Below, in pieces: positions 1,697-44,584 of a DNA stretch of 64,000 nt. The notes under the pieces were generated by a model that saw nothing but the letters and a program-made list of their open reading frames with translations, ran no database searches and was not told the DNA's origin. The position numbers were made by a program, and so were the translations under genes. Every line of letters starts with the position of its first letter. The first letter of the stretch is position 1. Origin of the DNA: a virus. The stretch spans positions 19,741 to 83,740 of the IMG/VR virus record IMGVR_UViG_3300020395_000004. One strand, 5' to 3'.

Positions 1697-1700
1697 AATG

Positions 1701-3560: not shown

Positions 3561-3595
3561 ACCCTGCTCTCACCTGAGTTTTTACTGGCATTTAA

Positions 3596-3601: not shown

Positions 3602-3637
3602 GTAAGTCCAGTATTTTGTCCCTTTGCTTATTACAAA

Positions 3638-5494: not shown

Positions 5495-5495
5495 A

Positions 5496-5624: not shown

Positions 5625-5676
5625 ACACTAAGTATTAACAAATCACTCACAGATCGCCAAATTTTTTATTAATCAA

Positions 5677-12293: not shown

Positions 12294-12320
12294 AACATAT
12301 TGGCACTAAATATAGGTAAT

Positions 12321-12734
12321 ATGCCATCGTATAGGTTCAGATCTGAAAAATATATCAGTAGAGGGTTTAAGGATTTAGCAGTCTCTTTTAAACCAAACCC
12401 TTCTACAGGAGATTTTGGTGTGGTCAAAAATGAAAACGCTATAAAACAGTCTGTCCGAAACATCATATTAACAATGTTTGGTGAAAGACCTTTTCAATAT
12501 GAAATTGGGTCTAGGGTTAAAGCACTATTGTTTGAGCCTTGGGATCCATTTAGTGCTGATAGTATGAAAAGTGAAATTCGTAATGCTCTGGATAGATTAG
12601 AACCAAGAATCGAAGTTAACCAAATTAAGTTAAGGGATGATTCTGATATAAATTCCATCCAGGTTGGTATTGACTACACTATCGTGGGTCAAGAAGAAAT
12701 ACAAAACGTCGAATTTCTCTTAGAGAGAGCATAA
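12321..12734 (+). CDS. 25: Baseplate wedge subunit gp25 (137 aa)
   Basis: gp25 is the small wedge protein at the sheath-baseplate junction, homologous to TssE of type VI secretion. The length matches T4 gp25 (132 residues). Visible are the DLAVSFKPNPSTGDFG start and the ENAIKQSVRNIILTMFGERP core; the second is the classic gp25 helix and E-R-P motif. A TTG at 12300 is in frame, but it sits at the predicted transcription start of the late promoter, so the ATG at 12321 (with AGGT upstream) is chosen. The stop overlaps gene 6 by one base. gp25 and gp6 form the wedge core with gp53. Confidence 0.9.
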   Translation: MPSYRFRSEKYISRGFKDLAVSFKPNPSTGDFGVVKNENAIKQSVRNIILTMFGERPFQYEIGSRVKALLFEPWDPFSADSMKSEIRNALDRLEPRIEVNQIKLRDDSDINSIQVGIDYTIVGQEEIQNVEFLLERA

Positions 12735-14839: not shown

Positions 14840-17800
14840 ATGACTCCGATAACCAAGAATATCAACGTCTCTGATAGGGTCGAAAATCAGTTACCTGAAT
14901 TTATACGCCAGGAAGACAGACAATTAGTCAACTTCCTATTTGAATACTATAAATCACAGGAAAAAACTGGTAGACCATACGATATCCTCAACAACTTGAT
15001 GAGGTATCTTGACCTTGACAAATACTCCTCAGAAGAGTTGTCAAGTAGCACGAGCTTGTTAAAAGATATTGGGGTAGATGACACTAAGATAGAAATAGAG
15101 AGTATTAATGGATTCCAGACAAGAGATGGATCCATAATGGTTGATAATGAGATCATTTACTACGAGGGAGTCACTCGTGGACCTGATGTTATTATTACAC
15201 CTGGTATTTCACTTCCACAGTTTAATAAGAAGAAGCAACAACTAGAAAACCCCTTCACATCGTTTGATGGTGTTGAAAGAGTCTTCCCATTAAGTTTTTT
15301 AGGTACTCCTATAGCACCTCCTAGTGCAGAGCACTTAATTGTAGTGACATACAACGATATGCTGATTCCTGGATCAGAGTATACTGTTAATGGCACTAAT
15401 ATATCATTTACAAATCCACCTAGAGCAAGAACAGGTGCAGATGATTCAGAATTTACTCAAGTAGTATATTTGGTTGGATATGCAGACCAAACAATCGTTA
15501 CTGCTGACCAAATCCCATATCAAGAGTGGCAGAATACTCAAGTTTATCCATTAAGAGTTAATGGACAGTCTTATACTCCAACTTCTGATATTGGTTTAAT
15601 TATTAACAAGAATGGTAGGTTACAAACTCCTCAAGACGACTATACCCTCTTTGAAGACAAGGTTATCTTCAAAAACCCAGTCGGTGCTGCTGATCTTATC
15701 CATATTAGGTCTGTTGAATATGTTGCTCCTGCATATGGGTCTGGAGCCTCAGCTATTGCTCAAGTTGATACTATAGGTCAGATTGAAGCAATCATTCCTA
15801 AGGATGGTGGTAAGAAGTATCGTCTAGATTTCGCTCCTAAGGTTGCTATAACCCATAAAGATGGTATTAGTGCTACTGCAAAGTCCCTAGTTGGTGGTAT
15901 TAAGGATATTAACCTTATAGATGGTGGACAAGGGTATTCTTCTTATAACCCACCTATCCCAGTAGTTGTAGCACCTGCAGATCCTAATGGATCCATTGCA
16001 CAACTAAGTTTAACAGTTAATGATGTAACTGGAACAGTTGATAGCGTTACTATTACTAATAGTGGTAGTGGATATGACTTTATTCCCGCTATTTCCTTTA
16101 AGAATCCTTCTGGTGCTACTATAGGTGCACCTACTATTGACATAGAAGGTAGAGTTAACATAGGTAGCATCCCTGTTATCACTATGGGTAGTGGATATAG
16201 TAATCCACCTACAGTTTATATTGATGCTGCTCCAGATGGGGGTATCAATGCTCAGGCAGTCTCTAAAATCAACCAAGATGGTCAAGTATATGAGATTACC
16301 ATTGTTAATAGGGGTAAAGGATACATTACACCTCCTAGAGTAAAGATTGTTGAGCCTATAGGTGCTCAAGTCCTCGATGTAACGGTTGCATCGGGAAGTG
16401 TTACAAATATTGAGATGTTAACAGGTGGTAGCGGTTATACAGACGCACCATCAGTCTACATAGTTGACAAAAGGGTTGATGGATATGGAGAACCAATTGG
16501 AGGTACTGGTGCAACAGCAGTTGCCACCATTTTTAATGGTGAAATCACCGATATCAACATTACTAACTTTGGAACTGGTTATTCCGAGTCTGAACCCCCT
16601 CAAATCTATATTGCAGAACCTAAATCCGCTAGAGCATCGGTAGATGTAGGTTTTGACGAAGTAACTGGATTCGACATCCTAGAAAAGGGCAGTGGATACT
16701 CTTCTTCTGCCTTTTTACAATGTTCTCGTGGTGTTTCTGGTCCTGTTAAGTATGATAACCTTCATAATGAGATATATGCCACTGAAGCGAATTTAAGACA
16801 GTCTGATCACCATGCAGGTGCTGCTGTAGTCAATTTAGACACTTTATTCATCAAAGAAGTCTTCGATAAGTTTAGAAGGCAGTATTTGCCGACTTTAGAC
16901 ATTGATTTTGCGTCAATTAACCCAGTTCAGGTAATTAAGAATATTACCGACTTCTATATCTCGAAAGGTACTAAATTATCGACTCAATACCTCTTCAAAA
17001 TTCTTTTTGGTGAAGATGTTGACCTTTATTATCCAAAAGATGAAATAATCAGTCCATCTCATGCAACTTGGGTTGTAGACACGGTTTTAAGAGCCGAATT
17101 GATGGAAGGAGACCCAAATAACCTAATTGACTCCCAAGTTAACCAATATGCCGATGATGTAGACCCTAATGTTACTGCTGCGTCTGCATTGATTGAAAAC
17201 GTCATTACAATCATCGAAGGAACCGATACAATCTACGAATTGGCGATTTCTGAAGAAACCTTGGTTGGAAGCTTCATTATTCCTTATAAAACTCGTCTTG
17301 TTGAGCCATTAACGACCACTGGGCAAATAATCACTGTTGACTCTACTATTGGATGGCCTGAAAGAAATGGTACCATAAGAATAAATGATGAAGAAGAAGT
17401 ACAATATAAAGAGAAATCTCTAAACCAATTCATTGAATGTACCAGAAGCAAAAACGGAATTGTTGAAGATTGGGATCCAGGAACAATAATTCAGTCCGAT
17501 ATTTACGTTTGGACTAACTTTGGAACAGCACAGCAATGTAAGTTAAGAATATTAGGAATTGCTGAAGCAGGTACTACAGTTCTTAATGATACAGGGTCAT
17601 ATTACCTTCAAGGAGATAAACTAAAGGTAGCAAACCTTGGATCTACTGCTGAGGAGTTAAGACTCCAATCTTGGTTATATAACGTCAAGAAACTTATCCA
17701 AGTTACCACTATAACTCCTGGTGGAGTTAATAACCAGACTGCGACTGTAGTTTGCGGTAACCCACATGGATTATTGGTTTCTGACCAAGTTACCATATAT

Positions 17801-20800
17801 GGTGCTAACCCAGTTGTCTATAATGGCACATTTACGGTTACATCACGTATTGACCAATTTACTTTCTCTTATCAGATAGCAACACCTACAGAGATAATTC
17901 CTACTGGTAATATCCTCTTATCTGTTGACTTAAACAGAGGTAAGTCTGATGTAGTATCAATAAACAAGGTTGTTAGTGAGTTTACAACTAACATACAGAA
18001 TGCATTTTTCAACGATAACTATGTTTATGTTGCTGCTTCTGGTTTACCCAACTATAAGATTGGTCCTTTCACTGGGTCAGCTCTCATCCCAGGAAACCAA
18101 AGGAAACTCTTAAGATTCCCCAGAACAGTACAAACCGTCTCAGAAAGACAAGCAGTTGCTCCAGGTACTCCAATAGGTAGTTGGGTCAACGGTGTTTCTA
18201 TATGGTCATATAAGTCTCCAGACTATATCCAGTATGGTCCTTTAACCTCTGTTAGTGTTACTAGCGTTGGTGAAGGATATGATGCAGGTGCTAAACCCAA
18301 CGTAGAAATCACTGGGGGTGGTGGAACAGGTGCTACTGCTGAAGTTATAGTTAATGGTAGTCTTTCATCATTTGATGTTATAGAACAGGGTAGTGGATAT
18401 ACAGAATCACCTTTAGTATCAATCGTAGGTGGCGGTGGTATTGGTGCTACTGCTCAAGCAGTTATTACAGGTGGTAGAGTAACAAGAATTTTAGTTGAGC
18501 AACCAGGTTCAGGTTATACGACTCAACCCCTAGTTTCTATTACTGGAGGTGGAGGCACTGGTGCGACTGCTACTGCCAGTGTCCGTGGACCTATTAGTAG
18601 TGTTAGTATTACAAACTTCGGTAGTGGATATACTTCACTCCCTGACATTAAAGTTAACTCTGGTGAGAATGCTTTAGCACAACCAATCGTATTAAATGGT
18701 AGAATCGTTTCTATCGCTATTATCAACTCTGGTAATTCCTATACAACAGCACCTAATGTAATAATCAATGGTGATGGATTTGGTGCAATCGCTAAAGCAA
18801 CTATCGGTACAATTGGTGAAGATAAAGGACGTGTATTAAGCGTTTCTATCACTAACCGTGGAATTGGGTATACACAAGGTTTAACAACCGTCAGACTCGA
18901 AGCAGTGGGTCAATTAGCGTCATTCCAACCTACAGTTTACCAATGGAATAGAAACCTTCAATATGAATTGGTAGACAAGTTTGATGGTGCAAGTGGATAT
19001 GTATTTACTGGATTTAACAACCAGTTTGGTGGTGAATATGCTCACCTATCAGATCCTAAAGAATTAAGATATGTTGTTGGTGATAACGTATTCTTAAATC
19101 CTGTTACACAGAATTTCCAAGAAGTTGCTTCTAACTATGACCACTCACCTATTATAGGTTGGGCATTTGATGGAAACCCAATTTATGGTCCTTATGGTTA
19201 CATTGACCCAACTGACCAGAATAGTGGTATCAGAAGGATGCGTACATCCTTCAAATTGAAGACTAATGTTGTATTTGATGCAACTACTAATCCTAACCCT
19301 TCTAGGGTAGATGGACCTCCTATTTCAACATATGCTGCTGGAACATTTGTTGATGATTACTACTATGATTTCCAATCTGGTGATTTAGACCAATATAATG
19401 GTCGTTTCTGTAAAACACCTGATTATCCAGATGGCACATATGCATACTTCGTAACTATCGATGCTAGTGACGCAGGTATTGCTGAATTCCCATATATCGT
19501 TGGACCTCAGTTTAACTCACTTCCAGATTCATGGAATATGAATCAAGCAGCAACACAGGAGAATATTCCTGATGGAGTTGTCCGTTATAGAGATCCATAT
19601 ACTGATGTTGACATTGATATTGACCGTCAACCAAACCAGACTGCTGATGTCTTTACTACTGAGATAGAAGGTTATCCTATCATCTTTGAAATACAAGACT
19701 CTAATAATGATGGTTTGATTGATGCTAATGAGCAACAAGAATTATTAGAGATGTCTGAAGAGGCAACTCTACAAATATACGATTATTTCCCAAGAGTATC
19801 AGCAGAGTCTAGAGTTGATATTGAAGTTGAGACAACTACCCAATTTGAGAATGCTCAGATAGATGGATTCGTTGTTGAAAACCCAGGTGTTTCATATCAG
19901 GTAAATGACACCATATTCTTCGATAATGAAGGAACTGGTGGATTTGGTGCATCTGCTCTTATTGAATCTGTTAAAGGACAGAATATAATTGGTTATCAAA
20001 AAGAAATGATTGGTGACCGTCCTTACGGTGTAATTACTACTGATATAGAGCATGAATTACGTCAACAGGATGAAATCATTGTAAACTCACGTCCTGTTAT
20101 TGATAATACTAATAAGACGTTTAGAGTTAAGGTTGTAGCGGGTGTTGAGAATATTGCTATAACTCAATCAGGTACTGGATATAATACAGATATTCCTCCA
20201 ACATTTGAGTTAATTACTGCATCTGGACAAGATGCTGAGTTATCACTTGTATTAGAGAATACAGGTCAAGTTAATGCTGTTAATATCATTAACTCAGGTA
20301 ATGGATACGATTCTGATAATCCTCCTCAGATTAGGGTATCACATCCACAACAATTCAAGAAAACAAGGTATTGGTTAGCTGAATATCAAGAAGCAACAGG
20401 TATAGTTAGTATCAATGATATTGTAACCACTGAAGAGCGTTATACTTATATTTGCGGTAGCATCACTGAGACAGATGGTGATATGGCAGCATTCCTTGCC
20501 AAGTTTGATGATTTAGGTCAACTTGTTTGGGAAAGAAACCTTCTTCCTCAAAATGCAGGTCAGAAGAAAGCAGAATTCATTAAGATTCTAGTTGACGCAG
20601 TTCCAGAGAATGACCTCATATATGTTGTTGGACATACTTACGATCCAAACAATTCAGCATATAATCCTGATATATGGTTAGGTAAGTATGAATCTGGATT
20701 TAATAATGCTAATGCACCTGATGGTATTCTTAAATGGCAGAAAGCGATTGCAGGTATCAGTGGTACTACAAGAAGGGATTGGGTAACTTCCTTAGCACTT

Positions 20801-35800: not shown

Positions 35801-38800
35801 GTTGACCCATCATGGAATAATTCTCTAAGGATTGTTGATGATGGTGTATCACGTCATACTCCAACAGATGCTTCTTATACTGCTACAACTGGAGTCCTAA
35901 CATTAACAGTACCTAATCATGGTTGGTCTAATGGTCAGTATATTAGATTAGAAGATTATGCATTAGATTTAACTTGCACCATGGATGATGGTAGTGAGAA
36001 TCATGCATATCCTAGAGGCACAGATCCTATTAGTAATAAGTGGTTAGAAATTTCTAACGTAACTGCATCTACATTTGATATTAATGTAGGCACTACACCT
36101 TCTGTCCAGTATACTCCTGCTGATGCTTCTTATGACCCATATTCAGGTCATATGGAATTGAATATTGGTGCTCACCCACTTAAGGTTGGTCAAAGTGTTA
36201 AACTTGCTGATGGTGCTGTTACCTTTAGTTGTGACATGGATATGAATGCATCTAACCATGCATATCCAAGGACAACTGTTGACACATTTACTCCAACAGC
36301 AGGAGCATATGATGGCACAACTGGTTATCTAACATTAACTCTTAATGGTCATGGATTTGATAACGGATCATTAATTAAGATTGCAGATAATGCTCTTACT
36401 GCTACCTGTGAAATGGATGGTAATTCATCAGGTAAGACATATCCAAGATCAACAGATCCTATTAGTGGAAAATGGAAACCTGTAGAGAATGCAACTGAAA
36501 ATACATTTGATATTTTTGTTGGTAAGACAGAATTCAAGAGTTTCGATCCACAGCAAGTAGATTATAATCCTGCTACAGGTAATATGGTAATCACTGTTGG
36601 TCCTGACCACGGTATTACAACTGCACATAGTGTTTACATTAATCGTGAATCAATGTGCTTCACTTGTGCACAAGATGGTCATGGAAGTGACCACTTCTAT
36701 CCACGTCCTAATGGTAGTGGTGGTGCATCTGGTGATGACCCTGCATATCAAGAGGCTGTTGCTGTAACTGCTGTTGATGATAGCACTATAACAGTTAATG
36801 TTAACCCATCACCTTCTGGAGCATCTAATCATGCTCATATCTTCAAACCTGCTGTAGGTTTAACTCCACAGAATGTGACATATAGTGGTGTATCTGGTGT
36901 GATGACTGTTACCTATGCAAGTCATGGCATGATAACAGGTGAGCAGATTATGTTTGAGGATAATTCCTTAATCTTCACATGTGGTAAAGATGACCATGCT
37001 ACTGAGCATGCTTATCCAAGACACGGTGACCCTGCAAGCAACAGATGGTTAACAATTACAAGAATTGATGACAATAGATTCACTGTTAAAGTTTTAGATG
37101 AAACTCCTTCTACTAACACTTCTGCTCATACATTCAAGTATGCTAAAGCAGGTGCAATGAAGAGAGGATCTATCAGAGCAGGTGGATCATTTACACATAC
37201 ATTTACAACATTCGCATCAGGTGGTGTATCTCATAAGAGAGATAGAGCATATGACCATTCTATAGAAATTAAGAAAGTTGGTCATGGTGAATATACTGCT
37301 ACAGGTGCAACATATAATGCTGAGACAGGTGTCCTACAATTAACAATTAATGGTCATCCATTTGCTAATGGTAACATGATTAAGTTGAAGCCTAATTCAC
37401 TAATCATGACTTGTGATATGGATAACAATGCTACTAAGCACTCTTATCCTAGAAAGACAGATTTTGCTTATGATAGATGGTTAGAAATTTCCAACAAGCA
37501 AACAAATACTATTGATGTTAACGTTGGTAAAACACCTCGTGCTAACTACCTAGTTTCTGCTGCCACATTTGACCCAACATCAGGTGACATGGAACTTACT
37601 ATTGGTAAGCATGGATATCATGGTGGCACAACACATACAGTAACTAATGGTACCTATGATGCTATAACTGGTAAGATGGTTATCACAGTTCCTGATCATG
37701 GATTCATTATTGGCGATAGAGTTAAGTTTGTAGATAATTCAATTTCATTCAAGTGTGGTATGGATGGATATGATGTTGTTAAATCTTATCCAAGACCAAC
37801 TGACCCTGCACATAACACATGGTTAGAAATTGATGATATAACACTTCATACATTCTCTATTAATGTTGGTACATCACCTAAGACAACTCATAACGTAACT
37901 AACGCTAATTACAATCCTACCAGTGGTGTAATGGAATTAACCATTGGATCACATAACTTGGATGTTGGTGATAGTATCAAACTTAAGCCAAATTCATTAA
38001 CATTTACTTGTGATTATAATGGTGATGGTCAGACAACTCAGAAGACATATCCTCGCTCATCTGGTGCTGCTACTGCAAACGGTAAAGACTATGCTTATGA
38101 TGCAGCATTGGTTATTACTGCTAAGACAGGAACATCAATCACAGTTAACGTTAACGGTGGTCAAGGTGCTATTACTGACGTAACTACTCACACATGGGCT
38201 GGTGGAACATCAGCAGGTGCTGTTATGTCTGGTGGTGGTTATGCACATCAATTCTGGTCTGCTGCTGCAAACGGACTTCAGAGAGCAAACGAATCAGTTT
38301 ACATTGAGAATGAGTCATTAGTATTCAAGTGTAATAATGATGGTTATGCTACTGAGCACAAGTATCCACGTGCTAATGGTCAAGGTGGTGCTACTGCTGA
38401 TGACCCATATTATGATACTTCAGTTCCTATAGTTTCTGTAGGAGATGAAACTATTACAGTTAACGTTGGTAAATCTTCAGATACATCAACTCATCTATTT
38501 GTAAGGTCTGAAAATGCATTCGATGTTTCTGGTGCATCCTTCGTACCTGGCTCAGGTGAATTAACAATCACAATGCCTAGTCATCCATTCACCTCAGGTG
38601 ATAAGGTTATGCTTAAGGATCAAGGATTCACATTCACTTGTCAAGAAGATAATGACCAAACAACTCATTCATATCCTAGAGCATCAGACCCTGCTTCAAA
38701 TAATACTTGGTTGACAGTTACTGTTGTAGATGCATCTAACTTTAAAGTTAACGTTGGTACTTCTTCTAACGTTACAACTCACACATGGGTATCATCATTA

Positions 38801-41800
38801 CCTGGTGCTGTTATAAGAGGTGTAATTAGAGGTGGTGGAGTTTATGCTCATACCTTCGATAGTTTCGTTGATGGTGGAGTACAATGGAAGAATTCTACTA
38901 TTAGTCTTGACGTTGGTGAGTCACCAGCTAAAGGATATGGTGTTAGTGGTGCATCCTTTGTACCTGCCACAGGTCTATTGACAATGACAATCGGCAACCA
39001 TCAGCTTAAGACTGGTATGTATGCCAAGATTGCTAACAAGTCAATGGTATTCCGTTGCGACCAAGACTCACAGCAAACTGACCACGTATATCCACGTCCT
39101 AATGGATTCAGTGGTGCTACAGGTAATGACCCTGCATACAATAATAGAGTAGAAATTACTTCTGTATCTGCTGATAGTATTACAGTTGATGTTGGTACAT
39201 CTTCTAACACTACAACTCATTATTTCCAAAACGCTAATAACGTTTACACACCAACTTTTGCATCATATGACCCAACATCAGGTTTAATGAATATCAGCAT
39301 TCCTGGTGACACTAAAAACGTTACAGGTGCTGCATACAACCCAACTTCTGGTACATTAGAATTAACAATCGGTGCTCATACTTTAACTACAGATGATGTA
39401 ATTAAGTTGAAGCCTAATTCATTAACATTCACTTGTGATTATGGTGGAGATGGAAACGTAACTCAGAAGACATATCCTCGTGCACAAGGTGCATCTACTT
39501 CTGATGGAAAAGATTATGCATATGATACTGCATTAGCAATTACTGCTGTAGACCAAGCAGGTGGCACAATCACAGTTAACGTTAACGGTGGTCAGGGTGC
39601 TATCACTGATACTACTACCCATACATTCCAATCTGCACTTGCAGGTGCTGTTATCGTTGGTAACGGTTTCATAGATGGTGAGTATATTAAGATTGCTGAT
39701 GATGCATTTAAGTTTACTTGTGATAAGGATAATAACGTTACATATCACGATTATCCAAGAGCATCAGATCCATCAAGTGGAAGATGGTTGAAGATTTCTA
39801 ACTGTAATGTTGATACATTCGATGTCCAAGTATTACAAAACGTACCTTCCACAAACACAACTGACCATACATTTGTATCTGCTGTAGCATCTAGTATTCA
39901 GAGGTCTGTTGTTACTATCGGTGGTGAGTATAATCATACATTCGTATCTGCTGTTAGTGGTGGTGTAACTGCGGGTGGAAACTATACACATACATTTGCA
40001 TCTGCTAAGCCAAATTCACTACACAGACAGAGTGGTAAGATTACAGTTAATGTAAATGTTGCTGCTACTGCTGACCTATATGACCATACATTTGTTAGTG
40101 CAATTCCTGGTGCTGTTATAGCAGGTGGTAATTATATGCACTCATTTGTATCTGCTGCCACAGGTGGAATTGAGAAAGCAAATTCATATATCTTGATAAA
40201 AGATGGTGCTCTTAACTTCACATGTGATTTAGATGATTATGAAACTGAGCACTTATATCCTAGAGATACAGACCATGCAAGTAATGAATGGTTGGCAGTA
40301 TCTAATGTCACTGTGGATACATTTGATGTCCAAGTATTGAAAGGAGTCCCATCATCATTCTTAGGTAAGCATACATTTGTATCTTGTGCTGAAGGTGGTA
40401 TATGGAAGCAAGACGGTACTATTAAGATTAACGTTGGACCTTCACCTGCGGGTAATACATATGCTCACAGATTTGTAAGTGCTAACTCTGGTGCTTTAAT
40501 ACAGGGTGGTAACTATAGACATAACTTTGTATCTGCTGCATCTGGATGCATTAAGGTAACAAATAGTGGTGCTACATTAACACCTACTGATGCATACTAC
40601 GTCCCAACAACAGGTAAGTTAACTCTAACTGTTGCAGGTCATAGTTTAACAACTGATGATACTATTGAAATTGATACTAACGGATTAACATTCACATGTA
40701 GTCAAGACCAGAATGCAACTAACCACACATATCCTCGTGTGACAGACTATGCTGACGGTAAGAAATTACATGTCCAAATGTCTAACTCATGGGCATGGCC
40801 TACTCAAGATTTGAAATACTTCAGGTCACGTCAGGTATCACAAAACTACACAGGTACAGAAGGTGCTCCAGTAGAAACTGAGATTACACAACTCATACAA
40901 TTTGTAACTGATGGACTTACTAATCCTAACACAGTTGCAAGTAGGTCTTACATCATGCCTACTGTATGGCCTGTTAAGTATACTCCAGAAGTTGTAGTAA
41001 GAGATCTTACTATTCAATATGATACAGCACAGGGTGGACAAGGTAACCAAGGTACATGGAATCAAACATGTCAAAACGTTGCTTCAACAATCGCTACTGT
41101 TGCTGATATCTACATTCAAACAATAGCAGAGGCAGCAAATAATAATGTTAACTACTTAACTTCAAACGTTACTAAGACATTCCCATTCAATAGCAACACA
41201 ATATATCAAGATGGCACATGCTATAACGTAACATCTGCTATTGATACGTTGTTTGATATTATGAAGCATACACTTGGTGCTGGATCAAATAACTCCAAGA
41301 ATATCGCTAACATGATACTCTTCAATCAGCAAGCAATAGCAGGAAGAGCATTTGGTGAGACACAGGTTAACTGGCCTACAACTAATCTAACTATTGACTT
41401 TGCTAATGATGTCCTTGCAGCAGTACGTTATGACTTAGTAACTGGTGGTAACTCAGGTGCATTTGAATTAGCACAACAGTGGTTTGACGGTGAAGGTAAC
41501 TTCATAGCATTCCCAACCGTAGTTAGGACACACATCTTATATTGTTTAACAAGAGTTAGAGAATATATTAAGAGTGTTATGTATCTTGTTGGTGAAGATG
41601 CTGTATGGAATAATTACGATGTATATGTCCCAGAAGGAAGACTTGAGTGGAATCAAGAAGCAGTTGAATTTATGGTTGACTCTTCACTTAACCCACTTGA
41701 ATTTGCTTTAGAGAGAGGAGAATTCCCAACAGAAGCAAGAGTCCAGTGGATTGCATCTAGTGATGCTGTTAACCGTGTTACAAGGAATGAAGTAGGTTGG

Positions 41801-44584
41801 GATTATAACACCGACCCTGCATTGGTTACTCTAACTCCTGAAGTTGAAGTTGGATATGACCGTGCTGAATATAGAATAAGAATTAATCAACCAAACAACT
41901 TCCGTCGTGGTGATGTGTTAAGTTACATTCCTACTGGTGGTCAAGCTCTTAGTGGATTGACAAATCAGGAATATTTCTACTGTCTAACTGCTACTGCTCA
42001 GTGGTTTGAAATAGGTGCTTCCTATATCCACGATGGTAGATTTAGATTACTACAAGTAGATACATCTAACTCAAACACACAGGTATTCCAAGTAATGCAG
42101 AGAAGTGGTATTTCAAGGACTGCTCCTACATACCCAGTTGATATGTCCGATACTCCAATACAAGGTGGATTCAATGCTGCTGACGTTGTATATGGGTCAA
42201 CATCTGGATCTAGTGCTGAGGTATCAAATGTCCTTACTAATGAAGGTAAGATTTATAAGATGTATACACACTATGATTTAACTGGTGTATCACAATCGGC
42301 TGGCACATACGAAAACTTCATTAATGGTGAGACTGTCCAAGTCCAAGGTGCAACTTCTAATACTGGTTTTGTATTACAGACTGCTGCAACAGATGATGAC
42401 ACAGGTGAATCTATCCTTAAACTTAACTCCATCGCAGGTGCTATTAACTTGAATGATGTTGTTGAGGGTGTAGATAGTGGCACAACTGCAACAGTTGGTA
42501 CTCCATCTGAAAGATTCTTACTTAACGTTACATCTGGTGCATTCTCAGCAGGTGACTGGTTCTTCGAGGAAGGTGCTAACACTGAAGCATACATGGATGC
42601 TTATGTTAATAAGTCTGGTTCTCTAACTGGTAATGAAGGTGGTAGAATTACAATCGATGTTGAGACCATTGATAGTCAGTGGACTCCTGGTGATATTATC
42701 TACGGTAGTGTTACTAACTATATTCTTTCAGTTAAGGGTATTAGTGGTACACAAATTCAGTTGAATCAGTGGTTACACGGTAGAGTAACCTATGAATTAG
42801 ACCTAGGCGTACCTATCGTTGATACTGGTATCTCTGATACATTCAACGTTGGTGACGAGGTTACACTCCTACAAGGTACCGTCCAGAAGAATCCAGGTTG
42901 GATTGCTACTGTAACCAAGTATATTAATGGTCTAGAATTAGATCCAGGCGAGCCTAACTATGGTATTCATAAAGTTTGGATTGGTAACTTAGTACCTGTT
43001 GGAGCAGGTGCTGATATCTCTGAGGTAACTCAAGGAATTAATACTATTGGTAAGATTCAATTAGGGTCTAATTTCCCAACAATATACGCACAGTGCACAA
43101 ACGTAACTACAACAAATTACTCATCTTATGCAAGAGTAGTTGCTATAGAGCAAGCAGGTATTACTGCTGAAATTTGGGTAGAGAATGCAGTTGGTGATTT
43201 TGTTGATAATATGTCACTTGTATCTGACTTTGGATGGGGTGGTGCTGTTACTTCTGCTAGGACACTAGAGGGTAGAGTTGACAGATACTTCAGAGGATTT
43301 GATGGAAATCAAACAATATTTGACTTAACCATTTCTAATGGTGAAGCATACTTCCCAGATCCAGCTGGACATCTATTAGTATTCGTTAATGGTATTCTAC
43401 AACCTCCAGGTGGTGCTAACTCTTATGTTGCATACTCAGATAAGATTCAGTTTGCTGAGCCTCCTGAGATTGGATCACAATTCGTTGGATACTATGTTGG
43501 TAAATTACGTCAGTTAGATGATATCAGTTATGAGTTTGACTCATTGAGATCTTCCTTCAACCTTAAGCGTCAAGGTTTATTCTACTCCTTAACACTGACT
43601 GAAGGTGTATCTTCTAACGTTATACGTCCTGAGAATAACATTATCGTATCACTTAACGGTATTATTCAGGAACCAGGTCTAGCATACGAGATTGTTGGTT
43701 CACGATTAATCTTCGCTGAAGTCCCACGTGCGGGATCAACCTTCGTTGGTTTCTCATATATTGGTAGTGATGCTGACGTTATCGCAGCAACAGTCGTACC
43801 TCCTGTTGAGGCAGGTGACCAACTCTTTATCGAGGGTGAGGAATTTAATCGTGAAGTTGCTCTAATTGAATCTTCCAACTCCTTGATTACTTTTGAGTAT
43901 ACAGGATCAGTTAAGGGTAGAAATGCTGCTGCTATCGCTCAGATAACCTCTGGTAAGATAACAGGTGCTAACCTAACCAACTCTGGTGATGGTTATACTT
44001 CACGTCCTAACGTTGACGTTATATCTTCCTCTGGATTTGATTCTCGCATCAAGGCATTGATGGGTATTACACGCATAGATGTTAAGACATCTGGTGTTGG
44101 ATACTCTATACCAAATGTTGCTATTGATAACGTAGTTCCAGATGATTTCACACCTCCAGAAGGTGCACCAATTAACGGTGGATTTGATGTATTCGCAGGT
44201 GAAGGCACAGATGCAGGTGGTGGAGGTACCACAATCGAATCTGGTACAATAGCAATTCTTCAGGATCCAGTTAACGTTACTGTTAACCAAGGTCAGAATG
44301 CAGCATTCACAGTTGTCTCTAGTGTAACTAACGACCAGACAATGAATTATCAGTGGCAGAAGAAGGAGTATGGTACACAGACTTGGAGCAACATCATTGG
44401 TGCTAACCAAGCAACATACAATACTTCTATCACACAACAAGCAGATGATGGTGACGAATATAGAGTCGCTATCACAGCAGCAGGTGCAATCCCAGTTTAC
44501 TCACTCTCTGCTACATTGAGTGTCCAGACTGGTGCTACTATCTTGAGTAACTTCACTCCAGACCTTATCTTTGACGACAACTAA
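14840..44584 (+). CDS. Giant multidomain virion protein, gp7-position (9,914 aa)
   Basis: One frame of 29,745 bases without a stop encodes roughly a megadalton of protein. Residues 1-310 plus about 640-1,130 (including FDKFRRQYLPTLDIDF) look like the conserved part at T4 gp7's place, but gp7 is only 1,032 residues. Then come GxGY beta repeats (about 300-630, 1,130-1,360, 3,090-3,335), a YHYH-like domain (1,370-1,560), an EF-hand loop (1,620-1,631), a propeller-like region (1,840-2,230), LamG-like domains (2,234-2,434; 4,454-4,617; 5,285-5,475), two CBM5/12-like segments (2,654-2,790), helical units (4,065-5,270 and about 8,850), the YPR array (5,478-8,651), paired LNG-PG modules (about 9,480-9,650) and an Ig-like end (9,800-9,900). 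It is probably a late baseplate or peripheral fibre protein that contacts host glycans. Proteolytic maturation is possible. Confidence 0.8.
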   Translation: MTPITKNINVSDRVENQLPEFIRQEDRQLVNFLFEYYKSQEKTGRPYDILNNLMRYLDLDKYSSEELSSSTSLLKDIGVDDTKIEIESINGFQTRDGSIMVDNEIIYYEGVTRGPDVIITPGISLPQFNKKKQQLENPFTSFDGVERVFPLSFLGTPIAPPSAEHLIVVTYNDMLIPGSEYTVNGTNISFTNPPRARTGADDSEFTQVVYLVGYADQTIVTADQIPYQEWQNTQVYPLRVNGQSYTPTSDIGLIINKNGRLQTPQDDYTLFEDKVIFKNPVGAADLIHIRSVEYVAPAYGSGASAIAQVDTIGQIEAIIPKDGGKKYRLDFAPKVAITHKDGISATAKSLVGGIKDINLIDGGQGYSSYNPPIPVVVAPADPNGSIAQLSLTVNDVTGTVDSVTITNSGSGYDFIPAISFKNPSGATIGAPTIDIEGRVNIGSIPVITMGSGYSNPPTVYIDAAPDGGINAQAVSKINQDGQVYEITIVNRGKGYITPPRVKIVEPIGAQVLDVTVASGSVTNIEMLTGGSGYTDAPSVYIVDKRVDGYGEPIGGTGATAVATIFNGEITDINITNFGTGYSESEPPQIYIAEPKSARASVDVGFDEVTGFDILEKGSGYSSSAFLQCSRGVSGPVKYDNLHNEIYATEANLRQSDHHAGAAVVNLDTLFIKEVFDKFRRQYLPTLDIDFASINPVQVIKNITDFYISKGTKLSTQYLFKILFGEDVDLYYPKDEIISPSHATWVVDTVLRAELMEGDPNNLIDSQVNQYADDVDPNVTAASALIENVITIIEGTDTIYELAISEETLVGSFIIPYKTRLVEPLTTTGQIITVDSTIGWPERNGTIRINDEEEVQYKEKSLNQFIECTRSKNGIVEDWDPGTIIQSDIYVWTNFGTAQQCKLRILGIAEAGTTVLNDTGSYYLQGDKLKVANLGSTAEELRLQSWLYNVKKLIQVTTITPGGVNNQTATVVCGNPHGLLVSDQVTIYGANPVVYNGTFTVTSRIDQFTFSYQIATPTEIIPTGNILLSVDLNRGKSDVVSINKVVSEFTTNIQNAFFNDNYVYVAASGLPNYKIGPFTGSALIPGNQRKLLRFPRTVQTVSERQAVAPGTPIGSWVNGVSIWSYKSPDYIQYGPLTSVSVTSVGEGYDAGAKPNVEITGGGGTGATAEVIVNGSLSSFDVIEQGSGYTESPLVSIVGGGGIGATAQAVITGGRVTRILVEQPGSGYTTQPLVSITGGGGTGATATASVRGPISSVSITNFGSGYTSLPDIKVNSGENALAQPIVLNGRIVSIAIINSGNSYTTAPNVIINGDGFGAIAKATIGTIGEDKGRVLSVSITNRGIGYTQGLTTVRLEAVGQLASFQPTVYQWNRNLQYELVDKFDGASGYVFTGFNNQFGGEYAHLSDPKELRYVVGDNVFLNPVTQNFQEVASNYDHSPIIGWAFDGNPIYGPYGYIDPTDQNSGIRRMRTSFKLKTNVVFDATTNPNPSRVDGPPISTYAAGTFVDDYYYDFQSGDLDQYNGRFCKTPDYPDGTYAYFVTIDASDAGIAEFPYIVGPQFNSLPDSWNMNQAATQENIPDGVVRYRDPYTDVDIDIDRQPNQTADVFTTEIEGYPIIFEIQDSNNDGLIDANEQQELLEMSEEATLQIYDYFPRVSAESRVDIEVETTTQFENAQIDGFVVENPGVSYQVNDTIFFDNEGTGGFGASALIESVKGQNIIGYQKEMIGDRPYGVITTDIEHELRQQDEIIVNSRPVIDNTNKTFRVKVVAGVENIAITQSGTGYNTDIPPTFELITASGQDAELSLVLENTGQVNAVNIINSGNGYDSDNPPQIRVSHPQQFKKTRYWLAEYQEATGIVSINDIVTTEERYTYICGSITETDGDMAAFLAKFDDLGQLVWERNLLPQNAGQKKAEFIKILVDAVPENDLIYVVGHTYDPNNSAYNPDIWLGKYESGFNNANAPDGILKWQKAIAGISGTTRRDWVTSLALDQEGRIYLAGYTDSNSIDPNDMWIIQCNLDGDLVEKRKIASATDSEMINQIQWISDDRFFMVGQNDENDDCIFGVFWFDGANLEIEYIRQIPTIGGYVRNPKFTIDEYDDVILVWDVYNGAAQKYDKVQINKFPLSTASTSWTWSKTVTISGDIDAIRHAGVNVDKFGNYTLVTDVIEDQNQRYAIYHYIKYDGNVIKESKVDDTTSIGFQAITHSVDNSGDVIMVINRQQSDQIAAYRFNDDTDLDYDFTKQNKAAMTFYSPSDASYDSSFYKYGTGALKLSAVNPVSLPNLNLESKEWSFRAWLSMNSTAHSTDHKPLLWDILPVAGDSIQVELDGDTNSANYEKVIIYVNSVQVATSLLATNWTAFAGASWVHVTFQKREESLGLYQYEVFINGALVCNFQSTSDISVGSAVLCGKSAGPTSNNTFIGWVDDYVIDDVAPYLSAYSVPSAEIEITTSNSDSALVKFDREHTKRGSYALSGLDNYTQLDFTDNEITTTWVDVGLSAISPWIVGAGGLQILDMSQVVSNLNPGTYTFTANKFEYGTKTSTIPSPLGKKLIIEPEVISKFYIRDALYQKIDNVMEFTFSQDIKLTKGSILQQFNSSGVTQAYGTIVKVPEGTLLNPGYGNKYQVGKIYGTFNNTDRYRTVANDINQIEGTYFNTEEEESPWQANTAYTAGDRVYADKKIYEVQATGTSGTISLSHTSGVASDGLLNWAFIDDAGKFTVDLTQHPYPRPQWVGMDMPEWLPDRLYVEGQRVWWKLNVYEVAVGGAGVAGTNAPVHDTGDASDGGVTWTHVSTEEAISVYSRLMGYDMGNNYTVQIMEVHPGSVYIPDDVVSLNAGNITLAEDEKSVEISGFASVKKIQVTARLEKDIIRTNAVRTEFVYCTSNTAHMFKAGDILFTEGFSTAQFNGSFFIDQVIGTREFTFAIRATASSDPAFINNALGGVNIYAKHPTLEFTRNHQYVFDLSDSSNFGYYLSFSQDNQYKLEYSFNNIERNGTPGIATTPAPTVQFSVLGEVTNISYYFDPSRTGADSPVGTNSFIDVIKTPFDGRFTISEVPTDTSFKFPLLKEPERTNAEVGEDYLGNDYSYYSTTSVRAVGPINTIQLVSPGGFYQKLPIISDIASFRQIEKCVVVDGGTEYAPGVYYDVPIAGDGEGAKCTVTVEVDEEIGSGTITGCAVTDPGKGYTTASIDIDAIPGILGATLAGSGGSVNVVIPSEGSGASVFLTGTNIGKIKRLKNNEFGFGYSHDYTLKPEITFPVNLQLFNTSILSQITITDPGSGYSSTPAVVIEGGGGSGAEAEAIIKNNRLSEIIIKNPGAGYSSEPTVTLKSEFNYVVNLDLNYLQFNFPHGITSGAEVTFRAENVGSTTGELPKPSTAGLTSLVANQVYYAIAGTAAGLEPDQLRFGLTKASALAGSYITFLTQGSGRQVLLTEVFGGKATAVVETSRFLEGEDVYQGSNVETATAMGTVSTNTGWQIGPKILKIVDYTGDWAVGESVTGTISKASGVIDNFSIARGVLNIGSLTKTPGRFIDDVGKPSEIVQKIQDSFFYQNFSYVVQSQIPITEWKSQVLENNHPAGFNMFGQLQLTGGKDVSGRKIGTEFTKKVNINNYSNVNQITSFGAAQPIYTDYNNTEVLFRKKRLTSSEEILTSIVKKLDNFEDQFDGIKKAFPITVEGEQVIVKQDQLMITLNGVIQAPGISYQVVGGDLVFSEPPRPPSKVNYRIIGVTPTPIYRIALYSPGGNANYGIFPTIGQQVQGEFSDAVGTVIDSGTNHIDVINIVGGPFQLNEEIVRGEIFSALVETVTQVNSDTIFEFGEAITNLEGDTAYVEETNVDTDGNVTDRLVVSKTSGTPRFETGIYDLRLNEYIYSASSKIAGQITYTAPYSDPINDEVVDELIINRGTTFFGLLFERLLSLTNPNIILDNISQSSITPTKLYDSSNRINADFLDFEEVRTTEVTYSQLANGAFADGDIIRNKKTFYGNPISVFHGNAANRFLDGGRNIANNKQEIIDFAEASIAIDYPDYYFPSDVITNAWSRFKDAYRMIQKNKALIVGMAFDDMKTQFPSSSIPSDAKCKRDIEYFVDAVSIDMYAGGNRYTRKFCQQYFNEAGSFTYINAQATETKWAYEKARDRMKVAIANGYSGTISAANSGDSWVAYQDLTITADPSPTNPYGTAGTNTSNTDSDNCTDVQSAIETLHEIVDETLTNGSLTELPVESGGTYSPHQEKCRRDLGYFIDAISNDLKTGGNYQTVLFTRSFFDASGTPLTNGIVGEEAEAVHAFTTAGTLMHRAINNLMYWKDLSGVGYNLNDPTTYSGGVAPANTYDANYASGNNQDINNCANVKSYIDTLKAIATTAMTAGNLTNVNNLASITDGTFQDGETIRTTKFAYKNRSRGLFALGDTIKGITSGAVFEAIGANAGLKWIFASNVTGTFQDEEWITNSTLTATNCTQSVIVKKAELVGDKSVYKPSNGLLTQTASEDFAFGTGDFTIQSWIRPAANVGTQYLFDFRRLSAAQGLNIRMDGQGLKVYNGTTLMVSGSGDFATTGTWYHIAIVRNSGVTQAYVNGAQIGSNYVDTNDYLYNAPHIGSDFNQSSHWTGHIDNLCIKKGVCDFITGFTPPTQVDFAEDNIVLGIDGEGPFIASTTEVWATYTGQRTSSTTAKRVDYDGLALIASDIDTGRKELRDCAEIIDLNGAWIAEEAVGRMKAAFVDFTIRGDDPGNNSYGGTNLCIRDTKDYILGALIKDLQEGGDFHTIYTARTYLTTSGKLDHITDEILQSLYTWNEVFKLCETVITTTSTDLSGEYSTRLRIPNNFSSPASSTVTDEIKLLGDNLLKVVAPNDQRFREGGFQLWKNRDYIAEEVAGYIQNKYQQEINEVTYDFLEMPGYGQPYCERDIKQFILPAVMADLVTGGTYQTEAVIDKYLDSQNKVIHVDEELNPMLDAFEYCKMLCMKAVNNLLLSSGEAAAELGVPTWVQEEYYAPQWTARAAYRDDTIVLDTEGYPQAGTRQNNDRYLDAADLIWKNRHVIAKECVSTMNDLSKYENLNIPGGHVNCEDDVLDMIEAMVHDLRFDCNEKTYDAAALYIETENNSLKHIEGEWEASITVVKILRDITSLIMRNAFGRDYEEGGSPDQKPVESYEQNPRIDLYKNCGDAIDGNIRYIAEQAVAAGLVQFPNLNIPGGPINCVHDVTDILRALVFNIKYGGNNWLQYSTEFYATYSGNLDHVTNAPTETNWIMNKARDFAIRAMKGQIITNEAGHVVDQRFYDAVPRPTTTMVTTSVLTGAPVTDNYNNLVTRSFKFGEDKISTTDTGTGIIPDEDAVFSVVTKLPSSPIDCCLFEAGGGTSGVWFGIRDGGTWLRLRAGNGTNSYTSGASYTADTGLAMLDLQISNLTQYFDDGDHELVWQIVIGGNQTTGAGSVTLWIDGQQIGQATTPGGGWTGLTGASGLFANTQWAGFGVSNGSLVAGEAATINTFTVNVGPAPTIAYDITAADYDSSTGDLILNVGNHNHTPGTFLRLISNSLTFTCDQDNHASNHTYPRSGDPAGNTAVEVLDVGRTEHTATAASYDPNSGIMNMTIEQHGMTASTSHTAKDAAYDPDSGVLTITLDDHGFKTGDQVKIHNGSLIFTCAQDNHATKHGYPRQKDPAGDQWLLIEEVTPNTFKVNVGATPKVEYNVSDAVYDQNDGELTLDIGQHRFVGASNHVATFAEYNADKGTLKLTVSGHGVIVGDQIQIMENSMTFTCSMDNHYTNHVYPRSTDPCVGQWLDVVESDIPGGTFTVNVGQSPIVGWDPSDATYNSETGHLTLEIGNHSLAVGTHVKLSQESLNFTCSMDDHATIHSYPRDTDPTHNEPIQILATTATSITVPVGTTPTVQYTPTNATFTPADGLLELTLDRKHTFRPATIHNISGGEYNGSTGMMRVTVADHGFSNGDFVKIADGGITFSCTMDGNASNHAYPRASDPYSNKWLAVRNASKDSFDVYVGRTPELPFTITDATFVPSTGHMRVWIGDHDLVAGDYVRMTEESIGFTCLLDNNISKKYYPRSSGSNYVGNGGADPFWNKRIQIAYAGMPLTATTGTSYNPTTGVMSISTDAPHGMSDGDEVKIATDSLVFTCLEDNNQTNHTYPRATDPFNDRWMRVSNTSTYTFDVQVLSYAPSTNSTTHTFVQANVNGITKKDGTITLDVGASSDTTAHTYTATPGLTPTAITHNPVTGIMDITVEGHKLMAGDFIKIADNSLTFTCAMDNHASDHVYPRPADPASGSWLKVLTATTDTFTVQVLKDIPQSNTTTHLFKSAVAECITKSVIKTGGVYDHTYVTSSVGALRHAGDSVRLAPDALTFRCDADGQASDHVYPRSATTQHTPSDVVYNPNTGNLKFTVNNHGFLPHSYVKIADNSLTFTCAKDDNATGHLYPRPTDPVSGKWVMINDVSANTFTVEVLDVIPSTNTTVHTFVSATSNCITHKKDHFYDTNIPIYEVGMTSSTPSNVSYNPTLGEMVVTVNNTLTGCNKITPDSATYYPATGILRIQMNGHPVKNGQMVWLQDGAFTFRCDEDGQASDHAYPRPSDPASNKFLKAFNVGTNTIDVNVGYFEGQGAISNQTTHVFQSGAMNGVWHANSYVMFEENAVTFQCTKDNNATNHSYPRPSDPSWNKWLPVFNTSSGQFSVKVGKSGINDIYDHTFVSFATDGLKTQTGTIKLDVGNGQITNPTTHVFQSANANSLIGGGEYTHDFKSTNSTYTVTDANYLPATGIMTLTIPNHGFQDGESIKISNDSLVFTCLQDAGGSEHSYPRYTDPVADKWIKIHNCTDDTFDVQVLENIPSTNQTLHTFKRASANGVTRAVLATGGNYTHKFIAPAQLTPTNAVYDPSTGVMTVTVTKHGLKNGTRIKVEDGFVTFTCGQDSNQTNHSYPRASDPFSDEWMKVSNVTTDTFDIQVLFNIPSTNTTPHTFVSGKPKSITVATLMKGNDSIKIADNGLTFTCSKDGNSTEHTYPRPNVDPSWNNSLRIVDDGVSRHTPTDASYTATTGVLTLTVPNHGWSNGQYIRLEDYALDLTCTMDDGSENHAYPRGTDPISNKWLEISNVTASTFDINVGTTPSVQYTPADASYDPYSGHMELNIGAHPLKVGQSVKLADGAVTFSCDMDMNASNHAYPRTTVDTFTPTAGAYDGTTGYLTLTLNGHGFDNGSLIKIADNALTATCEMDGNSSGKTYPRSTDPISGKWKPVENATENTFDIFVGKTEFKSFDPQQVDYNPATGNMVITVGPDHGITTAHSVYINRESMCFTCAQDGHGSDHFYPRPNGSGGASGDDPAYQEAVAVTAVDDSTITVNVNPSPSGASNHAHIFKPAVGLTPQNVTYSGVSGVMTVTYASHGMITGEQIMFEDNSLIFTCGKDDHATEHAYPRHGDPASNRWLTITRIDDNRFTVKVLDETPSTNTSAHTFKYAKAGAMKRGSIRAGGSFTHTFTTFASGGVSHKRDRAYDHSIEIKKVGHGEYTATGATYNAETGVLQLTINGHPFANGNMIKLKPNSLIMTCDMDNNATKHSYPRKTDFAYDRWLEISNKQTNTIDVNVGKTPRANYLVSAATFDPTSGDMELTIGKHGYHGGTTHTVTNGTYDAITGKMVITVPDHGFIIGDRVKFVDNSISFKCGMDGYDVVKSYPRPTDPAHNTWLEIDDITLHTFSINVGTSPKTTHNVTNANYNPTSGVMELTIGSHNLDVGDSIKLKPNSLTFTCDYNGDGQTTQKTYPRSSGAATANGKDYAYDAALVITAKTGTSITVNVNGGQGAITDVTTHTWAGGTSAGAVMSGGGYAHQFWSAAANGLQRANESVYIENESLVFKCNNDGYATEHKYPRANGQGGATADDPYYDTSVPIVSVGDETITVNVGKSSDTSTHLFVRSENAFDVSGASFVPGSGELTITMPSHPFTSGDKVMLKDQGFTFTCQEDNDQTTHSYPRASDPASNNTWLTVTVVDASNFKVNVGTSSNVTTHTWVSSLPGAVIRGVIRGGGVYAHTFDSFVDGGVQWKNSTISLDVGESPAKGYGVSGASFVPATGLLTMTIGNHQLKTGMYAKIANKSMVFRCDQDSQQTDHVYPRPNGFSGATGNDPAYNNRVEITSVSADSITVDVGTSSNTTTHYFQNANNVYTPTFASYDPTSGLMNISIPGDTKNVTGAAYNPTSGTLELTIGAHTLTTDDVIKLKPNSLTFTCDYGGDGNVTQKTYPRAQGASTSDGKDYAYDTALAITAVDQAGGTITVNVNGGQGAITDTTTHTFQSALAGAVIVGNGFIDGEYIKIADDAFKFTCDKDNNVTYHDYPRASDPSSGRWLKISNCNVDTFDVQVLQNVPSTNTTDHTFVSAVASSIQRSVVTIGGEYNHTFVSAVSGGVTAGGNYTHTFASAKPNSLHRQSGKITVNVNVAATADLYDHTFVSAIPGAVIAGGNYMHSFVSAATGGIEKANSYILIKDGALNFTCDLDDYETEHLYPRDTDHASNEWLAVSNVTVDTFDVQVLKGVPSSFLGKHTFVSCAEGGIWKQDGTIKINVGPSPAGNTYAHRFVSANSGALIQGGNYRHNFVSAASGCIKVTNSGATLTPTDAYYVPTTGKLTLTVAGHSLTTDDTIEIDTNGLTFTCSQDQNATNHTYPRVTDYADGKKLHVQMSNSWAWPTQDLKYFRSRQVSQNYTGTEGAPVETEITQLIQFVTDGLTNPNTVASRSYIMPTVWPVKYTPEVVVRDLTIQYDTAQGGQGNQGTWNQTCQNVASTIATVADIYIQTIAEAANNNVNYLTSNVTKTFPFNSNTIYQDGTCYNVTSAIDTLFDIMKHTLGAGSNNSKNIANMILFNQQAIAGRAFGETQVNWPTTNLTIDFANDVLAAVRYDLVTGGNSGAFELAQQWFDGEGNFIAFPTVVRTHILYCLTRVREYIKSVMYLVGEDAVWNNYDVYVPEGRLEWNQEAVEFMVDSSLNPLEFALERGEFPTEARVQWIASSDAVNRVTRNEVGWDYNTDPALVTLTPEVEVGYDRAEYRIRINQPNNFRRGDVLSYIPTGGQALSGLTNQEYFYCLTATAQWFEIGASYIHDGRFRLLQVDTSNSNTQVFQVMQRSGISRTAPTYPVDMSDTPIQGGFNAADVVYGSTSGSSAEVSNVLTNEGKIYKMYTHYDLTGVSQSAGTYENFINGETVQVQGATSNTGFVLQTAATDDDTGESILKLNSIAGAINLNDVVEGVDSGTTATVGTPSERFLLNVTSGAFSAGDWFFEEGANTEAYMDAYVNKSGSLTGNEGGRITIDVETIDSQWTPGDIIYGSVTNYILSVKGISGTQIQLNQWLHGRVTYELDLGVPIVDTGISDTFNVGDEVTLLQGTVQKNPGWIATVTKYINGLELDPGEPNYGIHKVWIGNLVPVGAGADISEVTQGINTIGKIQLGSNFPTIYAQCTNVTTTNYSSYARVVAIEQAGITAEIWVENAVGDFVDNMSLVSDFGWGGAVTSARTLEGRVDRYFRGFDGNQTIFDLTISNGEAYFPDPAGHLLVFVNGILQPPGGANSYVAYSDKIQFAEPPEIGSQFVGYYVGKLRQLDDISYEFDSLRSSFNLKRQGLFYSLTLTEGVSSNVIRPENNIIVSLNGIIQEPGLAYEIVGSRLIFAEVPRAGSTFVGFSYIGSDADVIAATVVPPVEAGDQLFIEGEEFNREVALIESSNSLITFEYTGSVKGRNAAAIAQITSGKITGANLTNSGDGYTSRPNVDVISSSGFDSRIKALMGITRIDVKTSGVGYSIPNVAIDNVVPDDFTPPEGAPINGGFDVFAGEGTDAGGGGTTIESGTIAILQDPVNVTVNQGQNAAFTVVSSVTNDQTMNYQWQKKEYGTQTWSNIIGANQATYNTSITQQADDGDEYRVAITAAGAIPVYSLSATLSVQTGATILSNFTPDLIFDDN
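26998..30580 (+). repeat. Six helical units (C-x2-D...GGN) before the YPR array
   Basis: Repeated helical blocks start with a Cys-x2-Asp and carry D-L-x-x-G-G-N or a variant about 16 residues later (near 27034, 27500, 29006, 29491, 29977 and 30374). A partner motif, N-C-x-x-V-x-S-x-I-x-T-L, follows units 1 and 2 (near 27375 and 27833). A seventh unit (about 41390-41590) lies beyond the YPR array. The LamG-like domain at 28200-28690 lies between units 2 and 3. Confidence 0.65.
31270..40790 (+). repeat. Array of 30 YPR repeats within the giant protein
   Basis: I counted 30 copies of a unit of about 80-110 residues. The core reads Y-x-P-x-(T/S)-G-x-(M/L)-x-(L/I/V)-T-(I/V), then H-G, G-D-x-(I/V)-K-(I/L), F-T-C-x-x-D, H-x-Y-P-R, a D-P turn, W-L and an x-F-D-V-x-V end. 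Cys is present in all 30 copies, Asp three residues later in 28, and the residue two before YPR is His in 25 and Lys in 5. Units are diverged at DNA level, so this is an old array and not an assembly artefact. Confidence 0.85.

Follow-up and report, generated by a model that had tools for sequence, protein, structure and literature searches.

A megadalton open reading frame at the gp7 place of a T4-like cyanophage, with a putative gp7 core and a modular repeat-rich extension

Here, we analyse a 64,000-nt stretch of viral DNA (the window), taken from an 83,740-bp IMG/VR record, which carries a single gene for a protein of 9,914 residues. We propose that this giant serves a T4-like cyanophage, with its nearest relatives in Kyanoviridae, as wedge protein at the gp7 position, and that it would fuse a wedge anchor to an adhesion array, with approximately 9,000 residues of beta-rich, lectin-like and repeat modules. 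We give this explanation as a whole a probability of about 75%. The features discussed below are:

12300..12734, + strand: wedge subunit, gp25 homologue (by gene order and PHROG; the P-TIM40 gene there is named gp25-like)
12734..14833, + strand: gp6 homologue, directly upstream of the giant gene
14840..44584, + strand: giant gene, 9,914 aa, baseplate/virion protein at the gp7 place, PHROG phrog_701
14864..15007, + strand: N-terminal helices, residues 9-56 (AF2, low confidence; weakly aligned with the gp7 helical domain)
15017..16729, + strand: beta-rich segment with GxGY repeats, residues 60-630 (AF2)
16937..17032, + strand: gp7 core motif, residues 700-731 (hhalign)
17060..17593, + strand: putative gp7 domain V fold, residues 741-918, with an inserted barrel at 814-888 (VIA-align, Foldseek)
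19025..19465, + strand: YHYH domain, residues 1396-1542 (Pfam PF14240, E 2e-28)
26936..27220, + strand: phycobiliprotein-like repeat 1, residues 4033-4127 (Pfam, phage repeat HMM, PDB profile search)
27395..27685, + strand: phycobiliprotein-like repeat 2, residues 4186-4282 (phage repeat HMM; part of the profile)
28259..28639, + strand: Concanavalin/LamG-like domain, residues 4474-4600 (Pfam PF13385)
28874..29182, + strand: phycobiliprotein-like repeat 3, residues 4679-4781 (phage repeat HMM)
29399..29671, + strand: phycobiliprotein-like repeat 4, residues 4854-4944 (phage repeat HMM)
29864..30157, + strand: phycobiliprotein-like repeat 5, residues 5009-5106 (phage repeat HMM; part of the profile)
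30263..30550, + strand: phycobiliprotein-like repeat 6, residues 5142-5237 (phage repeat HMM; part of the profile)
31265..40837, + strand: YPR repeat array, residues 5476-8666 (30 YPR motifs, 32 HMM matches)
40838..44581, + strand: conserved C-terminal block, residues 8667-9914 (from relatives; Ig-like end by eye)
41300..41506, + strand: phycobiliprotein-like repeat 7, residues 8821-8889, no Cys (weak, phage repeat HMM E 2.8e-5)

The reading frame starts with ATG at 14840, ends with its one stop at 44582-44584 and contains no N. When the ORF was divided into ten blocks of 1,000 codons each (the last one shorter), the other five frames showed 36-155 stops in every block, and GC by codon position was coding-like in all ten. 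No exact nucleotide repeat of at least 30 bp occurs within the ORF and Tandem Repeats Finder reports no entry inside it, which makes an assembly error driven by repeats unlikely. A second record, G001 (199,258 bp), matches the gene identically across 29,745 nt and may share underlying data with the window. A third, G003, differs by 202 mismatches with zero indels and zero stops at equal length, the changes amounting to 103 synonymous and 83 non-synonymous codons. The resulting pN/pS is 0.26 over the whole ORF; the three regions that end by residue 4350 have 0.09-0.18, the three after it 0.36-0.49. With the C-terminal block as query, 22 IMG/VR records were examined; in 11 of them one frame stays open for 9,458-9,922 aa, two further ones are complete at 7,476 and 7,070 aa, and in the remaining nine the frame is apparently truncated. 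The earlier note had described one uninterrupted gene under selection with a megadalton product, and this is in good agreement with the open frame of 9,914 codons, the G003 comparison, the regional pN/pS values of 0.09-0.49 and a predicted mass of 1,075.7 kDa. Near the right end of the window, a tandem repeat at 61997-62072 (36-bp unit, 2.1 copies) may fall in an ORF running past the window end.

The gene order is PAAR, gp25, gp6, giant, ..., gp8, VrlC/DUF4815, as in T4-like cyanophages. The giant gene lies directly after gp6 in the wedge cluster, and the gp7 place claimed by the earlier note, together with its figure of 1,032 residues for T4 gp7, is thus upheld. By DNA, P-TIM40 is the closest of the named phages (73% over 42% of a 15-kb query). 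The family itself is already known: in T4-like cyanophages the gene after gp6 is called gp7 or "baseplate wedge initiator", the P-SSM4 gene at this place carries the annotation gp7, and several cyanophage giants are annotated as baseplate wedge initiator or virion structural protein. Lengths at the gp7 place are 8,573 (P-RSM6), 7,351 (P-TIM40), 7,312 (P-SSM4), 6,932 (S-SSM4), 6,817 (ACG-2014d), 6,737 (S-WAM1), 6,619 (S-SZBM1), 6,603 (P-RSM4), 6,378 (S-RIM2), 4,458 (MED4-213), 4,446 (P-HM1), 3,048 (S-PM2) and 2,995 aa (Sf-FS3). The P-HM1 gene was taken as gp7-place by its gp7 annotation, the gene upstream lying outside the stretch examined. Outside the cyanophages, the lengths are 1,016 aa in Pelagibacter phage HTVC008M and 1,032 aa in T4. 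Other IMG/VR records contain single open frames with lengths between 1,663 and 9,581 aa, of which the shortest are apparently truncated. A huge-phage survey mentions predicted proteins up to 7,694 aa (PMC7162821). The rarity that had been ascribed to the protein is overstated, since nine of the 13 named cyanophages examined have a gene of 6.4-8.6 kaa at the same place; the longest of the 13 reaches 8,573 aa, and the clade of the window is longer. Family membership is also reflected in phrog_701, which matches the giant with E 0 (residues 7-3829 on 3-3740) and its second half as well (residues 4002-4824 on 5344-6123 of 6136), so that both ends of the family are matched. Three PHROG matches (phrog_26741, 17744, 2885) are common to T4 gp7 and the giant, and S-SZBM1_208 is 56% identical to the giant across the first 1,000 residues.

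A homologous gp7 core probably occupies the first ~920 residues, as judged from profile comparison and a predicted model. The search of the N-terminus against gp7 profiles that the earlier note had proposed was positive: residues 700-731 align with T4 gp7 729-760 (hhalign P 1.3e-7, probability 94, 38% identity; 57-sequence alignment), and with a shallower 14-sequence alignment the motif still gives P 3.7e-5 and probability 71. A second hhalign match, of residues 9-56 on gp7 from about 644, reaches P 0.026 only, and the Pfam match of PF23786 (Baseplate_wedge) on residues 695-736 is weak and below the cut-off. The AF2 model covers residues 1-1140 (mean pLDDT 72, pTM 0.51); its block 60-630 has a pLDDT mostly of 81-93, from residue 71 on. 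In this predicted model, VIA-align places residues 741-918 on 763-854 of 9f4a (Z 9.1, rmsd 2.8, 89 aligned), on T4 5iv5 (Z 8.8, rmsd 2.6, 86 aligned) and on 5hx2 (Z 7.4), collinear with the core motif, which suggests a domain V fold. The first two ranks (Z 10.2 and 9.1) go to other phage proteins, which align on the inserted barrel 814-888. The best PDB match in Foldseek is 9f4a_A0 with E 9.2e-6; given a probability of 0.25 and a TM of 0.05, we regard it as local only. Two more chains pass E 0.001, namely lambda tail tip and the unrelated CatSper. Entry 9f4a includes gp7 of the T4-like Klebsiella phage KP1, and its chain A0 (1,031 residues) was taken as gp7 because of its length and the alignment at gp7 positions. 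Pfam finds none of Gp7_5th, Gp7_6th and Gp7_helical in the giant at E 0.01, while T4 gp7 matches all three; for this reason, a gp7 core and not a full gp7 is claimed. For gp7 residues 1-640 and domain VI, no counterpart aligned in the giant, at the limited sensitivity of these comparisons.

Modules account for the extra length: between conserved N and C blocks lies a YPR repeat, in 0 to about 30 copies. Relatives are collinear with the giant up to residue about 4,350 in the N block and from about 8,650 in the C block, ACG-2014d in pieces only. In S-WAM1 and S-SZBM1, the equivalent of residue ~5260 directly adjoins that of ~8640-8670, with zero YPR repeats. HMM matches to the repeat number 20 in P-RSM6, 8 in G019, 5 in P-TIM40, 3 each in G020 and ACG-2014d, and 0 in S-WAM1 and S-SZBM1. 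Each protein of the close clade contains 26-31 YPR tripeptides, with one beyond the array included in some of these counts. Compared with ten relatives, the array lacks 116-568 aa in eight, 6 in G013 and none in G003, whereas at most 25 aa are missing from any region outside it; insertions amount to 233 aa at most within the array and to 12 outside it. In the 199-kb record, the YPR family has 29 matches, all of them in the giant gene. The repeat also occurs in annotated tail-fibre ORFs of other cyanophages (among the matches listed, 60 of 339 records). Among aligned copies, C-x2-D, H, YPR and DP are almost invariant, and each repeat of the array (31265-40837) thereby holds a single conserved Cys, the second of its kind in the giant after that of the phycobiliprotein-like repeats. 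An AF2 model of the repeat (pLDDT 73, pTM 0.35) gave 575 Foldseek matches at E 10 and zero at E 0.001; the best of these, a grappling-hook protein fragment (E 6.4e-3, TM 0.12), was considered as the fold and discarded as unusable. A phmmer search of both protein halves against the PDB returned nothing at E 1. The next gene (44593-46581) carries YHYH and weak Ig-like domains, module types that recur in the giant.

One related contig, G002 (L121-L122), is window-like from residue 1 to about 3212 (97-100% DNA identity) and resembles G009 (L131-L132) from about 3228 to about 9300 (96-100%), with the switch within a 49-nt identical stretch. This may be a real recombination or a chimeric contig; the latter is possible because the junction is confined to the G002 contig, its sole occurrence in viral_contigs. 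Mosaicism as a general habit was rejected: when 17 proteins were compared in 136 pairs by 3,000 residues at the N-terminal and 1,240 at the C-terminal end, a switch showed in the G002 pairs alone.

The giant also carries seven copies of a phycobiliprotein-like repeat; phages that have it contain 3-9 copies each. Residues 3971-4420 score 24.7 bits against Phycobilisome PF00502 (cut-off 22.2), and 22.5 bits are reached in G001 with neighbours included. The half protein (18.9) and isolated repeat 1 (20.1) fall below the cut-off, repeats 5-6 with flanks give E 0.15 only, and of 24 copies scored in isolation, 6 reach E 0.1. A profile was built of 24 copies, hand-chosen from 45 listed; they come from seven proteins, none of them that of P-SSM4. 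Searched against 177,635 PDB sequences, it gave 47 matches at E 10, of which 46 were phycobiliproteins, the best being CpcA with 1.8e-4. In profile-profile comparison, 84 dereplicated copies of 121 matched cyanobacterial subunits with P 7.7e-9 (alpha) and 8e-9 (other subunit set), or, over match columns, 9.5e-8 and 1.2e-8 with scores of 44.7 and 50.0. The maximum in 150 permuted controls was 21.0 and the reversed profile gave 12.9-13.1; since permutation destroys helix periodicity, the PDB-wide search is the fairer control. The alignment suggests a helical repeat. It covers about 60 residues, is not lengthened by the flanks and has at its centre the residue that corresponds to the bilin-attachment Cys. 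The phage-only HMM picks 128 of 5,051 cyanobacterial ORFs, all 128 with C.[RN]D, which speaks for specificity and not for prevalence because the cyanobacterial loci were chosen for such genes. The S-PM2 tail fibre, which gives nothing with Pfam, carries repeats and matches NCBIfam phycocyanin alpha with E 0.001, far below the cut-off; P-HM1 YapH matches PF00502 with E 5e-4, also below it. From these comparisons, the repeats are most likely a co-opted host-derived fold serving as a tail module. Among the papers listed in literature searches, judged by titles and abstract openings, none reports tail proteins with phycobiliprotein-like domains.

Among the 84 copies, conservation is highest in the columns of Asp (80) and Cys (79), which we take to be the equivalents of the bilin-attachment Cys and its partner Asp, numbering 84/87. 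Each is kept in 6 of 7 window copies, and in 58 (Cys) and 62 (Asp) of 69 copies from the window and 12 named cyanophages. A motif-blind model gives 58 and 60 of 69, and for five phages outside model building 20/21 and 21/21. P-SSM4 has the Cys in none of its three copies. Of 13 named cyanophages, each covered over 50 kb or less, 12 carry repeats; seven of these 12 entered model building. No copy was found in 50 kb of Sf-FS3, in the whole HTVC008M genome or in a 20-kb T4 stretch. A tblastn search with repeats 5-6 matched 227 phage records, every one a cyanophage by its name. The idea that the Cys is kept only with phycobilisome hosts was abandoned: the MED4 phages P-HM1 and MED4-213 keep it in 5/5 copies each, while P-SSM4 (NATL2A) has 0/3. 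MED4 is not known to have phycobilisomes.

G001 also encodes two adjacent bilin reductases, a ferredoxin-dependent pair at 25165-26506 (L495:5165-6506). One lies above the NCBIfam PcyA cut-off (220 vs 206) and the second is far from all NCBIfam cut-offs (best 61 bits vs 263). The record further holds a heme oxygenase gene (E 6.6e-69) and a CpeT lyase match that is marginal (21.2 vs 21 bits). Bilin genes are described as known cyanophage auxiliary genes (PMC13198022). For this reason, and because the reductase is absent from 4 of 6 records, some of them incomplete, the co-occurrence of bilin genes and repeat in this genome is suggestive only; a strict partnership of reductase and repeat found no support, the reductase being present in the other two. 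It is conceivable but improbable that tail and baseplate proteins hold captured phycobiliprotein domains loaded with bilins from phage heme oxygenase, PcyA and a CpeT-like lyase, which would give a pigmented virion tail. If true, the tail would be the missing acceptor for the bilins made by the phage, and bilin-binding repeats would give these a virion destination.

That a homologue of the giant reaches the virion is reported for S-SZBM1_208 (6,619 aa), of which a proteome of purified virions contains 71 peptides that cover 13.5% (PMC9146016). S-CREM2 ORF122 (1,937 aa by coordinates), annotated as baseplate wedge and placed by us at the gp7 place by gene order, is likewise in its virion (PMC10665884). 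In the proposed role, the gp7 core would be built into each wedge beside gp6, with the N-terminus presumably binding gp6. There would be one copy per wedge and six per virion by analogy with T4, whose gp7 monomers number six (PMC3004832); in the present phage these would total 6.5 MDa. The long modular remainder would project outward as an outer baseplate or fibre-like surface contacting the host, which the repeats may lengthen or diversify.

Three other explanations concern the frame and the role. An assembly artefact in the ORF or the YPR array is suggested by the metagenomic nature of the contig and the possible chimera in G002; it was rejected and has next to no probability, given DNA free of exact repeats of at least 30 bp, the equal length of G003 despite its substitutions and a frame of 9.4-9.9 kaa in 11 of 22 records. 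A polyprotein, cut into several virion proteins, would be thinkable from the size alone and from the 13.5% coverage of the S-SZBM1 homologue (PMC9146016); in T4, the prohead protease cuts the proteins of the head. The five Pfam families found include no protease, autoproteolysis or S74 domain, and that homologue is a single 724-kDa entry with 71 peptides, whose positions the published table does not show (PMC9146016). Among the features predicted here we found no support for the cleavage into parts that the earlier note had considered, and regard it as improbable. Equally little weight goes to a free tail fibre or adhesin in place of a wedge component: the modules are mostly fibre- or lectin-like and several PHROG matches are fibre families, but the gp7 core motif and domain V lie close to the N-terminus and the gene adjoins gp6.

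A more serious objection concerns the repeats, whose likeness to phycobiliproteins could be convergence on a short C-x-x-D helix pattern, with no homology. The aligned part of about 60 residues does not extend into the flanks, and the seeds were picked by a regular expression demanding C/F/S-x-x-D plus a G/N turn, a choice that favours the motif. Masking the four motif columns weakens P from about 1e-8 to 2.9e-4 for alpha (probability 40) and to 3.5e-5 for the other set (72); masking GG(N) in addition leaves 7.6e-3 and 9.6e-5, and one score (20.2) then falls inside the permuted range. Arg is found in 32 of 69 copies, those of P-SSM4 are without Cys, and isolated repeat 1 stays below the Pfam cut-off. 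These points are countered by the 46 of 47 phycobiliproteins in the PDB-wide search, by a register that is unchanged on both subunit sets, masked or unmasked, by the masked phage HMM, which picks 19 of 5,051 cyanobacterial ORFs, 19 of 19 with C.[RN]D, and by the independent library matches in P-HM1 and S-PM2. Because of the masked control, we raised our estimate for convergence markedly and lowered that for the bilin reading slightly; convergence is now unlikely but a good deal less so than cleavage or a free fibre, and a co-opted host-derived fold is preferred.

In the repeats, about 60 residues including the Cys-x-x-Asp equivalent are shared with C-phycocyanin alpha and its kin (PF00502, TIGR01338), whose fold comprises ~160 residues; the phage repeat matches only a part of it and, unlike C-phycocyanin alpha, sits inside a virion protein. 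HTVC008M gp055 (1,016 aa) comes after two wedge-subunit genes and matches giant residues 670-788 (P 8e-9) and 1135-1308 (P 3e-9); against T4 gp7, its motif is non-significant (P 0.12). Its annotation as 'head closure Hc2' (L496:33435-36485) looks doubtful, given its alignment with the core of the giant. One paper describes cyanophages as being without gp7, apparently with VrlC in its stead (PMC7029224), with which a gp7 core in these phages contrasts. P-RSM6 CPXG_00128, P-TIM40_99, P-SSM4 gp7 and S-SZBM1_208 are, like the giant, single ORFs at the gp7 place, and the N and C blocks are collinear with it in the four phages tested, P-RSM6, P-TIM40, S-SZBM1 and S-WAM1. These named giants have 6.6-8.6 kaa, the clade of the window 9.4-9.9 kaa with its 26-31 YPR tripeptides. 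With T4 gp7 (5HX2, 5IV5; Klebsiella phage KP1, 9F4A), the giant would have the core motif, domain V and the place after gp6 in common, and to the 1,032 residues of T4 it adds YHYH, lectin-like and repeat modules. A baseplate part of this size would thus have become a megadalton modular protein through the insertion of countable repeats.
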